A stretch of DNA of 64,000 nucleotides from NCBI RefSeq assembly GCF_002017865.1, contig NZ_MTJN01000002.1, forward strand, positions 62,001 through 126,000, written 5' to 3'. Position numbers and translations under genes: made by a program. This document shows, in pieces, positions 46,057 through 51,171 of this stretch; positions within the stretch are counted from its first letter, which is position 1, and each line of letters opens with the position of its first letter. The DNA comes from Rhodoferax fermentans. GTDB taxonomy: Bacteria > Pseudomonadota > Gammaproteobacteria > Burkholderiales > Burkholderiaceae_C. Under the pieces are notes generated by a model, which was given only the letters and a program-made list of their open reading frames with translations, made no database searches and was not told where the DNA came from.

Positions 46057-46093
46057 GGAAAAAGGGCTAGTGCTTTTTCAAGCTCTAGCCCTT
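46057..46093 (-). terminator. Terminator or attenuator between rplT and pheS
   Basis: Minus strand AAGGGCTAG/CTAGCCCTT stem (46085-46093 and 46062-46070), 14-nt loop, then five T. It is built from a copy of the AGCCCTT/AAGGGCT dispersed repeat. It should reduce read-through from the infC-rpmI-rplT genes into pheST. Confidence 0.78.
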
Positions 46094-46952: not shown

Positions 46953-47546
46953 TCAAGCTGCGACCGCGGCACTCTCAGCAGCCACCGGCTTCGGAGCCTG
47001 TTTTTTGCGACCTGGTGCAATCATCATGATCATCTGGCGGCCTTCCAACTTGGGAAACTGCTCCACCACAATCAGGTCACCCAACTCGTCGCGAATCCGA
47101 TTCAACAAGGCCATACCCAACTCTTGGTGGGTGATTTCACGACCCCGAAAACGCAGCGTGATCTTGCACTTGTCACCTTCGGACAAGAAACGCTTGATAT
47201 TGCGCATCTTGATGTTGTAATCGCCATCATCGGTACCTGGGCGGAACTTGATCTCTTTGATTTCGATCACAGTCTGCTTGGCCTTGGCCTCAGCAGCCTT
47301 CTTCTGCTCCTGGTACTTGAACTTGCCGTAATCCATCAGACGGCAGACCGGCGGTGTGGCCGTGGCCGCAATCTCCACCAAATCCACATCCAGATCGCCG
47401 GCCATGCGCAACGCCTCCATCAGGCTGACGACACCAAGCGGCTCGTTGTCCACACCAGAAAGGCGAACTTCTGGCACCATGATTTCCCGATTCAATCGGT
47501 GTTTGCGTTCTTCGCGCTGACGGCGATCACGAAATTCGGTAGCGAT
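46953..47546 (-). CDS. infC: Translation initiation factor IF-3, probable AUC start
   Basis: 197 residues if translation starts at ATC 47546 ([20 protein letters not shown]), the usual N-terminus of Burkholderiales IF-3. No ATG, GTG or TTG precedes the conserved [12 protein letters not shown]; an in-frame TAA lies two codons before the ATC, and AAGGA is 7 nt upstream of it. A rare start codon matches E. coli infC, whose AUU is the basis of IF-3 autoregulation. Core blocks [20 protein letters not shown] and [20 protein letters not shown] are present. Confidence 0.93.
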
Positions 47547-47644: not shown

Positions 47645-49558
47645 TTAAGCGTTCGATTTATGAGCAATGTCAGCTGACAACTTCTGCGAGAAATCTTCCA
47701 GAGACATCACTCCAAGGTCTTGACCACCTCGGGCGCGCACAGCAACGGCACCAGACGCCATCTCTTTGTCGCCAATAACGACCAGATACGGCACTTTTTG
47801 CATCGAATGCTCCCGTATTTTATACGTGATTTTCTCGTTGCGGAGGTCTGACTGAACCCTAAACCCTTGATTTTGCAGCGTTTTGACCACGTTTTGGGCG
47901 TATTCTGCCTGCGCATCGGTGATATTGAGCACCATCACCTGAGTCGGCGCCAGCCAGGTTGGCAAGGCGCCAGCAGTTTCTTCGATCATGATGCCGATGA
48001 AACGCTCCAGGCTGCCGACGATGGCGCGGTGCAGCATCACCGGGCGATGGCGGGCACCGTCTTCCCCGACGTATTCCGCATCCAGACGCTCGGTCATGAA
48101 GAAGTCAACCTGGATCGTGCCACATTGCCATTGGCGACCAATGGCGTCCTTGAGGGTGTACTCGATCTTGGGACCGTAGAAGGCACCTTCTCCGGGTGTG
48201 ATTTCAAACTCGCAGCCCGAAGCACGCAGACTCTCCATCAAGGCGTGTTCGGCCTTGTCCCAGCTCTCATCCGAGCCAATGCGTTTCTCGGGCCGGGTGG
48301 CGATCTTGTAGATGATGTTCTTGAAGCCGAAGTCTGCATACACCTTCTGCAGCAGCGCGGTGTAGTCCGAACACTCCTTGAGGATCTGGTCTTCGGTGCA
48401 GAAGATGTGCCCATCGTCCTGGGTGAAGCCGCGCACCCGCATGATGCCATGCAGGCCACCGGTGGGTTCGTTGCGGTGGCACTGACCGAACTCGCCGTAG
48501 CGCAGCGGCAGGTCGCGGTAACTCTTGATGCCTTGTTTAAAAATCAGGATGTGGCCCGGGCAGTTCATCGGTTTGAGGGCGTACTCGCGCTTTTCACTCT
48601 CGGTGGTGAACATGTTGTCACGGTACTTGTCCCAGTGCCCGGTTTTTTCCCACAACGACTTGTCCAGCAGCTGCGGACCTTTGACTTCCTTGTAGCCGTT
48701 GTCGCGATAGACCTGGCGCATGTACTGCTCCACCACTTGCCACACCGCCCAGCCATTGGGGTGCCAGAACACCACACCGGGCGCATGGTCGTCGATGTGG
48801 AACAGATCAAGTTGCTGACCGAGCTTGCGGTGGTCGCGCTTCTCAGCTTCTTCCAGCATGGTCAGGTGCGCGGCGAGATCTTCTTTGCTGGCCCAGGCAG
48901 TGCCGTAGATGCGCTGCAGCATCTCGTTCTTGTGGTCACCACGCCAGTACGCACCGGCCACCTTCATGAGTTTGAAGTGTTTGAGCTTGCCAGTGCTGGG
49001 CACGTGCGGGCCACGGCACAGGTCTTCAAAGGTGCCTTCGCGGTACAGGCTCACATCCTCATTGGACGGGATGCTGGCGATGATTTCGGCCTTGTAATGC
49101 TCACCCAGGCCCTTGAAGTAGGCCACCGCCTCGTCACGTGGCAACACACGGCGGGTCACCGGCTCGTCCTTGCTGGCGAGCTCGGTCATGCGTTTCTCGA
49201 TCAAGGCCAAGTCGTCAGGCGTGAAGGGCCGCTCAAACGAGAAATCGTAGAAAAAGCCGTTTTCAATCACCGGGCCAATCGTGACCTGAGCCTGCGGGAA
49301 CAACTGTTTGACGGCATAGGCCAGCAAGTGCGCGGTGGAGTGGCGGATCACCTCCAGGCCATCGGCGTCTTTGGCGGTAATGATGGCCAGCTTGGCATCG
49401 GCGTCGATCAGGTAGCTGGTGTCAACGACCTTGCCATTGACCTTGCCAGCCAGTGCCGCTTTGGCCAAGCCAGCGCCGATGGAGGCAGCGACATCGGCCA
49501 CGGTCACCGCAGCGGGGTAGTCACGTTGTGAACCGTCAGGAAGCGTAATTTGAACCAT
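47645..49558 (-). CDS. thrS: Threonine-tRNA ligase
   Basis: 637 residues. N-terminal TGS domain (1-61), editing domain with [12 protein letters not shown] (HxxxH, about 72-84), class II catalytic core with zinc ligands in [30 protein letters not shown] (motif 2) and the C-terminal anticodon-binding domain. Full length. Its leader carries a Thr-rich short frame and a terminator, so attenuation is likely. Confidence 0.97.
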
Positions 49559-49584
49559 GATGATCTGAGGGGGTTTGAAATGAA

Positions 49585-49612
49585 CAAAAAAAAACGCGGA
49601 TCAGTCCGCGTT
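49585..49612 (-). terminator. Terminator hairpin in the thrS leader
   Basis: Minus strand 8-bp perfect stem AACGCGGA/TCCGCGTT (49612-49605, 49600-49593) with a 4-nt loop and at least eight T, ending about 27 nt before the thrS start codon. Being upstream of the gene it would act as an attenuator. Confidence 0.85.
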
Positions 49613-49662
49613 TTACTATTATCTTGAGAGCACACCGTGCATAAGGCACGCGGGCTACGGCC

Positions 49663-49704
49663 TTATTCTTTGAATACCTTTGCCGTTGTCGTTCGCGGTG
49701 TCAT
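49663..49704 (-). CDS. Candidate thrS leader peptide
   Basis: ATG 49704 to TAA 49663: MTPRTTTAKVFKE, 13 residues with four Thr, three of them consecutive (ACG ACA ACG). AAAGG lies about 9 nt before the ATG. The thrS leader terminator begins 50 nt after its stop. The arrangement is that of a ribosome-mediated attenuator responding to Thr-tRNA. Inference from sequence alone. Confidence 0.7.
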   Translation of the reverse strand: MTPRTTTAKVFKE

Positions 49705-49772
49705 AACCAGATGCCTTTCTCGCTCTTATCAGTGTGTGATGCGCACATTTTAGCCGCAGTCGAACACCCCAT

Positions 49773-49808
49773 AAAAAAGGGCTGGCAGCCCTTGCGGGCC
49801 ACCAGCCT
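49773..49808 (-). terminator. Terminator of aceA
   Basis: Minus strand stem AAGGGCT/AGCCCTT (49777-49793) with tight loop and T-run, within a larger imperfect GGCTGG/CCAGCC pairing. 35 bp after the aceA stop codon. Confidence 0.78.
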
Positions 49809-49842
49809 TTTCACCCCTCCTCGGGTTCTTCTAGGTTGTTAC

Positions 49843-51171
49843 TTAGTGGAACTGTGCTTCTTCGGTCGAACCGGACAAGGCCTTGACGCTGCTGGAGCCG
49901 CCCTGGATCACGGTGGTCACGTCATCGAAGTAACCGGCGCCGACTTCCTGCTGGTGCGAAACAAAGGTGTAACCCTTGTCGCGTGCGGCAAATTCCTGCT
50001 CCTGCACCATCTCGGTGTAATGCTTCATGCCTTCGCCACGGGCGTAAGCGTGGGCAAACTGGAAAGTGTTGAACCAGTTGATGTGGATACCAGCCAGCGT
50101 GATGAACTGGTACTTGTAACCCAGCGCCGCCAGGTCTTCCTGGAACGAGGCAATCTGTTTGTCATCCAGGTTTTTCTTCCAGTTGAAGGACGGTGAGCAG
50201 TTGTAGGACAGCAGCTTGCCAGGGCAAGCGCCCTGCACCGCCTGGGCGAATTCGCGGGCAAAACCGATGTCTGGCACACCGGTTTCGCACCACACCAGAT
50301 CGGCATAGGGCGCGTAGGCGATACCCCGACTGATGGCTTGCTCGAGACCGTTTTTGACGCGGTAGAAGCCTTCTGGCGTGCGCTCGCCGGTCAGAAAGGG
50401 TTTGTCATTGGCGTCGTGGTCGCTGGTGATCAGGTTGGCGGCTTCGGCATCGGTGCGGGCCAACACGATGGTCGAGACACCCATCACGTCAGCGGCAAAA
50501 CGGGCGGCGATGAGTTTTTCACAGGCTTCTTGTGTGGGCACCAGCACCTTGCCACCCATGTGGCCGCATTTCTTGACGGCAGCCAGTTGGTCTTCAAAGT
50601 GCACACCGGCAGCGCCGGAGGCGATCATGTTTTTCATCAACTCAAACGCGTTGAGCACACCACCAAAACCGGCCTCGGCATCGGCCACGATCGGCAGGAA
50701 GTAGTCGATGAACTCAGCAGAGCCCGGCTCGATGCCACGGCTCCATTGGATTTCGTCAGCACGTTTGAAGGTGTTGTTGATCCGGCGCACCATGGTCGGC
50801 ACCGAGTCGTAGGCGTAGAGCGACTGGTCGGGGTACATGGTTTCCGACGTGTTGCCGTCGGCGGCCACCTGCCAGCCCGACAGATACACCGCTTCCAACC
50901 CGGCCTTGGCTTGCTGCATGGCCTGGCCGGCGGTGATCGCGCCAAAGGCGTTCACATAACCTTTTTTGGCGCCACCATTGACCTTGGCCCACAATTTCTC
51001 GGCGCCATGTTTAGCCAATGTGTACTCGGGTTGCAGGCTGCCACGCAGGCGGACCACGTCTGCAGCGCTGTAGCCACGTTTGACACCTTTCCAGCGGGGG
51101 TTGGTTGCCCAGTCTTTTTCGAGGGCGGCGATTTGCTCTGCACGGCTGAGGGCCGAGGTGGATTGAGACAT
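49843..51171 (-). CDS. aceA: Isocitrate lyase
   Basis: 442 residues. The catalytic motif [11 protein letters not shown] is at about 198-208, with [10 protein letters not shown] and the C-terminal block [15 protein letters not shown]. Splits isocitrate into glyoxylate and succinate in the glyoxylate shunt. AGGAG precedes the start. Two palindromes in its 5' region are likely operators. Confidence 0.97.

Follow-up and report, generated by a model that had tools for sequence, protein, structure and literature searches.

A candidate ribosome-mediated attenuator of thrS in Rhodoferax fermentans and other Burkholderiales

The thrS locus of Rhodoferax fermentans

The locus of interest lies on the minus strand of a 64,000 nt stretch of the Rhodoferax fermentans genome (contig NZ_MTJN01000002.1, positions 62,001–126,000; hereafter, the window, numbered from its first nucleotide). 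It contains thrS (47645–49558, −), which starts at the ATG at 49558 and, as a member of that family, encodes a threonyl-tRNA synthetase of 637 aa; relatives match over the full length. No second full-length thrS match was found in the genome. Reading away from the leader described below, the gene order is thrS-infC-rplT-pheS. The infC-like gene appears to start, in frame, at a non-AUG codon (ATC, 47544–47546, −), the presumed start by comparison with IF3; the list of open reading frames uses an internal TTG. Between the rplT-like and pheS-like genes, ~28 nt before pheS, lies a terminator-like hairpin (GGGCTAG...CTAGCCC followed by a T run; 46061–46093, −); visual inspection revealed no ORF rich in Phe there. 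The gene upstream of the thrS leader, presumably encoding isocitrate lyase, has its own terminator-like hairpin (49780–49807, −).

Downstream of that hairpin, direct reading of the minus strand reveals, in transcript order, (i) a -10-like hexamer, TAAAAT (49747–49752), which belongs to a putative thrS promoter and precedes the leader ATG by 48 nt, (ii) an RBS-like AGAAAGG (49714–49720), (iii) a leader ORF, MTPRTTTAKVFKE (49663–49704), with Thr codons at positions 2, 5, 6 and 7, and (iv) an intrinsic terminator hairpin, AAAACGCGGA-CTGA-TCCGCGTTTT (49614–49591), whose T run extends to 49586. The codons of the ORF are ATG ACA CCG CGA ACG ACA ACG GCA AAG GTA TTC AAA GAA TAA (49704–49663). An earlier note, made from the DNA letters of this locus, had described a thrS leader ORF with an ACG ACA ACG run and a plausible ribosome-binding site, together with a strong intrinsic terminator whose end is separated from the thrS start by 27 nt; both descriptions are accurate.

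Four segments of the leader transcript are of importance for what follows. Segment 1 (CCGCGAACGAC; 49688–49698, −) spans leader codons 3–6 and is complementary to segment 2 (GTAGCCCGCGTG; 49647–49658, −), which lies directly past the leader stop and can also pair with segment 3 (AAAACGCGG; 49606–49614, −), the 5' arm of the terminator. Segment 4 (49586–49600, −) is made up of the 3' arm of the terminator (TCCGCG) and a run of nine T. Within segments 2 and 3 of the window leader, CCGCGT (49653–49648) is able to pair with ACGCGG (49611–49606). The minimum free energy of the window leader is not distinctive when compared with shuffles (z -1.1).

The frequency with which such a combination of parts arises was estimated by scanning both strands of 973,201 bases for an SD-preceded short ATG ORF containing two or more consecutive Thr codons and having a strong terminator no more than 130 nt away. 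The scanned DNA consists of the window and 119 loci that were picked for holding the motif, with the rest of their DNA acting as background. Of the 113 cases obtained, 89 begin with MTPRT, 22 represent alternative start codons of leaders of this type, and the last two are nested starts that share a single unrelated location. A dispersed repeat was considered for the spacer that separates the leader from the terminator, given its repeat-like appearance, and was rejected: the DNA at 49582–49662 matches only itself in its own genome, and a search with a repeat-like pattern was likewise empty.

Conservation and loss of the leader

A search for ThrS was successful in 59 of 60 genomes from the genus and in 149 of 150 from the family. 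The comparison below uses 159 thrS upstream regions, 51 from the window's genus and 108 from other genera of the family; partial genes and genes with internal stops are among those left out. The start of the leader, NTG-Thr-Pro-Arg-Thr, is present in 114 of the 159 regions. The earlier note had made its reading depend on the leader frame and Thr codons being kept in close relatives, and this is borne out in the other genera (94 of 108) but in only 20 of 51 regions of the window's own genus, where MTPRTTWSTSA is one example. The leader ATG is preceded by AAAGG or AAGGG in 111 of the 114 relatives, and a terminator is recognised downstream in 112. In 97 of 114 leaders, as against a shuffle mean of 12.6, the 28–70 nt interval before the ATG contains a -10-like hexamer, with a peak at -52 to -48; none was found between terminator and thrS in the 112 leaders. 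The hexamers of the relatives give no sign of a transcription start downstream of the terminator, which the earlier note had named as an observation that would count against its reading. For the window itself, a consensus promoter scan of 49000–50200 returned no promoter.

Thr occupies codons 6, 7 and 8 in 90, 55 and 19 of the 114 leaders, respectively, and codon 6 is something other than Thr in 24. Counted together, 164 of 342 codons at these three positions encode Thr in frame, versus 3 and 22 in the other two frames and a background of 3.5–4.0%. All four Thr codons are used at leader codons 6 and 7. This in-frame excess, achieved with mixed synonymous codons, indicates selection for threonine. 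The position of the leader stop is similarly frame-dependent: it sits 0–14 nt before the core of segment 2 in 63 of 93 leaders, as compared with 7 of 32 and 11 of 45 of those that have a stop in the two other frames.

The leader extends well beyond the family. When up to one mismatch is allowed, the pattern GGTTATGACACCGCGAACNNC has a single match in each of 32 of the 399 order genomes, whereas its reversed control has none; the 32 genomes belong to five families (11, 11, 5, 3 and 2 genomes), and thrS lies 113–280 nt downstream in all 30 loci taken from these matches. An exact 18-mer, GGTTATGACACCGCGAAC, is found in at least 119 stretches of the species collection. Among the matches listed, it precedes thrS in 118 of 119 loci (within 600 nt in 117; locus L256 shows the thrS start at its very end, and locus L258 breaks off 43 nt past its leader ATG). 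Nearly all of these listed records are labelled Burkholderiales, one is labelled Alphaproteobacteria and a few are without such a name; the labels include Comamonas, Acidovorax, Variovorax, Rhodoferax, Roseateles, Massilia, Janthinobacterium, Cupriavidus, Burkholderia and Paraburkholderia. Among 80 of the 119 listed loci, 65 have Thr at codon 6 and 45 have it at codon 7. Elsewhere in the order, 12 of 40 further thrS upstream regions contain a short ORF with in-frame CG[AG]-AC[GT] (e.g., MSFRTTTTGTLNQG, MCNGLSCRTTTTRER, VKHWRTTTTRYSHAC and MQRTSTKTITYLG). Variants seen by eye before thrS in the order include MTPLTYT... and MRPPTTS..., and no leader was recognised in the rest. Thr-run leaders of different sequence precede thrS in other families. 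Judged by sequence comparison, the arrangement of leader and terminator is real and conserved across many Burkholderiales.

In other families, all 16 loci that were scanned for it have a tRNA-Val (GAC) gene immediately before the thrS leader, and a tRNA T-arm-like sequence is present in 28 of the 40 thrS upstream regions of the order. Among the loci read in the window's own family, no tRNA-Val gene was seen near the leader.

The motif is absent from 45 of the 159 loci, and 31 of the 51 loci of the window's genus are without the leader. By eye, one leaderless locus (L072) has CTT in place of the leader ATG and another (L008) is missing the start of the ORF; a third (L144), which reads ATG-GCA-CCG-CGA-ACT, is a near miss of the pattern and was counted as lacking the motif. 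In 35 of the 45 leaderless loci a CGCGG/CCGCG hairpin with a T run is kept, often close behind TAAAAT, suggesting that the hairpin may act without the leader. The leaderless species of this genus, with hairpin retained, constitute a natural experiment on attenuator decay or replacement.

In leaderless relatives, TAAAAT can be found inside a palindrome, for instance AGAGCGTAAAATTACGCTCT (L034) and CAGCGTAAAATCACGCTG (L025). This was noted in ten loci and others besides, with the palindrome lying ~70–135 nt before thrS (~186 nt in L020), and with 35 nt between hexamer and CGCGG in many. The palindrome is perhaps an operator that took the place of the leader.

Alternative RNA pairings and simulated ribosome occlusion

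Of the 112 leaders in which a terminator is recognised, 93 were aligned for the analysis of pairing, near-identical and long ones being left out. Segment 2 is complementary to both segment 1 and segment 3, the best sites overlapping in 106 of 112 leaders; since one segment is common to both, stems 1:2 and 2:3 were counted separately. Single leaders are rarely distinctive, with a complementarity z below -2 in 24 (1:2) and 31 (2:3) of 112. Across the 93 aligned leaders, 83.4% of the cells of stem 2:3 are paired, versus at most 47% in slid controls. There are 35 double-change cells versus 17.6 in shuffles, and 0 of 500 shuffles reach as high a number; examples are columns 103/175 (GC 27, UA 18) and 109/169 (CG 59, UA 10). 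Swapping segments between species weakens stem 2:3 (p = 1.6e-4). The CGCG segments that the earlier note put forward as a possible antiterminator exist in the window, covariation in relatives supports their pairing, and the comparison across species indicates that this antiterminator is mutually exclusive with the terminator.

For stem 1:2, 70.8% of cells are paired, versus 19–42% in slid controls. Covariation above shuffles was not found for this stem in the 93 leaders, and a test of own versus swapped partners between species gave no signal, with swapped partners pairing as well. Of the alternative stems whose covariation the earlier note had proposed to check, 2:3 shows it and 1:2 does not show it above shuffles. 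The base of the terminator stem carries compensatory changes in relatives (5 and 10 cells), and the terminator loops are without conservation. RNAalifold, applied to the alignment, recovered only the terminator and a small GGU/ACC hairpin at the leader start, to which we return below.

The effect of a ribosome on these pairings was simulated by folding transcripts cut before segment 4, with the ribosome footprint barred from pairing; the read-out is the probability that segment 3 is paired upstream. On average, the 112 leaders gave 0.85 with the ribosome at codon 6, 0.63 with the ribosome at the stop codon and 0.63 without a ribosome, while the same leaders with shuffled spacers gave 0.79, 0.76 and 0.78, respectively. 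Outside the genus (92 leaders), the values were 0.91 stalled versus 0.65 at the stop; within the genus (20 leaders), they were 0.61 versus 0.55. No switch was obtained for the window's clade (10 leaders; 0.44 at codon 6 versus 0.56 at the stop), and the window leader itself gave 0.53 versus 0.69. These values fit an attenuation model for the family but, at equilibrium, not for the window's own clade, and the energetics of the window leader are equivocal. A set of 46 leaders of other families, from which near-duplicates and one leader without a recognised terminator had been dropped, gave 0.71 stalled, 0.54 at the stop and 0.51 without a ribosome (shuffled: 0.70, 0.71 and 0.72). Here, the real contrast exceeds the shuffled one in 33 and 37 of 46 leaders (p = 0.0013 and 2e-5); several leaders, such as those of L327, L340 and L331, go the opposite way.

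Interpretation and comparison with known systems

We consider it likely that the element controls thrS as a ribosome-mediated transcription attenuator and that it responds to the charging of tRNA-Thr. The attenuation layout proposed in the earlier note draws support, at the level of sequence, from conservation of the frame and its Thr codons, selection for Thr at codons 6–8, and covariation in the antiterminator. Transcription would begin ~40 nt before the leader ORF, with a ribosome translating MTPRT(TT)... behind the RNA polymerase. When charged tRNA-Thr is scarce, the ribosome would stall at Thr codons 5–7 and cover segment 1, leaving segment 2 free for segment 3; no terminator would then form, and thrS would be transcribed. 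When charged tRNA-Thr is plentiful, the ribosome would reach the stop codon and cover segment 2, allowing the 3:4 terminator to end transcription before thrS. If no ribosome is present, 1:2 pairing would hold segment 2 off segment 3. Stalling of the ribosome, the direction of the response and the role of stem 1:2 are predictions of this scheme. The switch probably raises the supply of threonyl-tRNA synthetase when charged tRNA-Thr runs low.

A different emphasis is that the fixed MTPRT core, either as nascent peptide or through its CGA-Thr codon pair, causes pausing or arrest in its own right, with the Thr run serving only to tune the effect. Leader codons 2–5 are near-fixed in their nucleotides (ACA in 113, CCG in 114, CGA in 108, and ACT in 92 plus ACG in 22 of 114 leaders), the amino acids being imposed by the search pattern and the synonymous choice left free. 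These include rare codons: in 59 thrS genes, ACA and ACT make up 5% and 7% of Thr codons, and CGA 4% of Arg codons. Some leaders keep MTPRT while having no Thr after codon 5. Moreover, alignment columns 38 and 39, the two A's of CGAAC in segment 1, are A in 88 and 93 of 93 leaders yet are paired in only 34 and 43, and so pairing alone is insufficient to explain CGAAC; by these alignments, the core, set in rare codons, is conserved more than pairing accounts for. The constraint could nevertheless act on the RNA, and other members of the order have SFRTTTT, QRTSTKT, RPPTTS or further sequences in place of the core, which argues that the exact peptide is dispensable; we judge a pause-based mechanism of this kind to be unlikely.

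The remaining two explanations give the ORF a minor part. If ThrRS were to bind the leader RNA, with the small ORF secondary, a protein site could be offered by alignment columns 23–34, where GGU-UAUGAC-ACC can form a hairpin with the leader AUG in its loop and is invariant in 93 of 93 leaders save for one G-U. The pairs of this hairpin are preserved in 93/93, 93/93 and all 93 with one G-U, but three inner pairs that never vary provide no evidence for pairing; the terminator loops are unconserved, and in-frame Thr selection with mixed codons is left without a role. Such binding is, in our estimation, very unlikely. Alternatively, the hairpin could be a mere stabiliser of the 5' end or a guard against upstream read-through, beside which the leader ORF is incidental. 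The hairpins kept at leaderless loci, often directly behind TAAAAT, are in keeping with this; the upstream gene in the window has a terminator of its own. Thr selection, covariation between segments 2 and 3, and the occurrence of leaders before thrS in several families would all go unexplained, and we regard the proposal as highly improbable.

With attenuation by a translating ribosome as the preferred reading, some consequences follow. The genes lined up behind the leader include those for IF3, L20 and PheRS, and threonine limitation could thereby reach the translation machinery. The order concerned is large and contains common laboratory and environmental bacteria, in which the conserved 18-mer makes thrS leaders easy to annotate and test. 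A more speculative extension, doubtful on present evidence, is that the thrS attenuator is old in Burkholderiales, and that its invariant ATG ACA CCG CGA AC[TG] provides a built-in pause, through the CGA-Thr pair, the nascent MTPRT chain or both, which sets the timing of the ribosome relative to the polymerase, with one Thr codon (codon 5) able to suffice for sensing; the thrS-infC-rplT-pheS order may then tie the supply of IF3, L20 and PheRS to threonine charging.

The thrS gene is subject to two well-known modes of control: in Escherichia coli, translational autorepression, in which ThrRS binds its own mRNA, and in Firmicutes, the T-box. Like these, the leader described here would make expression of the same gene track tRNA-Thr charging or ThrRS level; unlike it, they use recognition between ThrRS and mRNA or between tRNA and mRNA, without a leader peptide. 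No match to the T-box covariance model (RF00230) was found in the window or in related loci. If the proposed mechanism is correct, it would add a third charging-dependent mode of control for thrS.

Parallels also exist in the attenuators of enterobacteria, including those of the thr (RF00506), trp (RF00513), his (RF00514) and leu (RF00512) operons and of pheST. These have in common with the thrS leader a peptide rich in the regulated amino acid and alternative antiterminator and terminator structures; they differ from it in their targets, thrS being the one here, and in their leader sequences, to which that of thrS is unrelated. The Thr operon leader RF00506 has no match at E ≤10 in window positions 49500–49820, nor at E ≤1 in six related loci, and RF00512 gives a chance-level match to the window leader (17 bits, versus a gathering score of 50). 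No Rfam family reaches its gathering score on the leader, the best chance-level matches falling far below. A thrS leader peptide in this group was not found described in the open-access literature; an earlier prediction is possible in Lopatovskaya et al. 2010 (Mol Biol 44:128), which reportedly covers aminoacyl-tRNA operons.

Excerpts of PMC2965389 and PMC4833913 contain nothing on thrS in this group, and among the attenuators for which an excerpt of PMC3766115 gives models are those of the His, Trp, Thr and Leu operons. According to PMC8632094, the uORFC-8-2 motif, found before cysS in Rhodobacterales, is likewise a predicted ribosome-mediated attenuator. In layout, the two share an aminoacyl-tRNA synthetase as target, tandem cognate codons in a small ORF, and a terminator with a U run; uORFC-8-2 differs in responding to Cys, in belonging to alpha-proteobacteria, and in having its Cys codons usually at positions 14–15.
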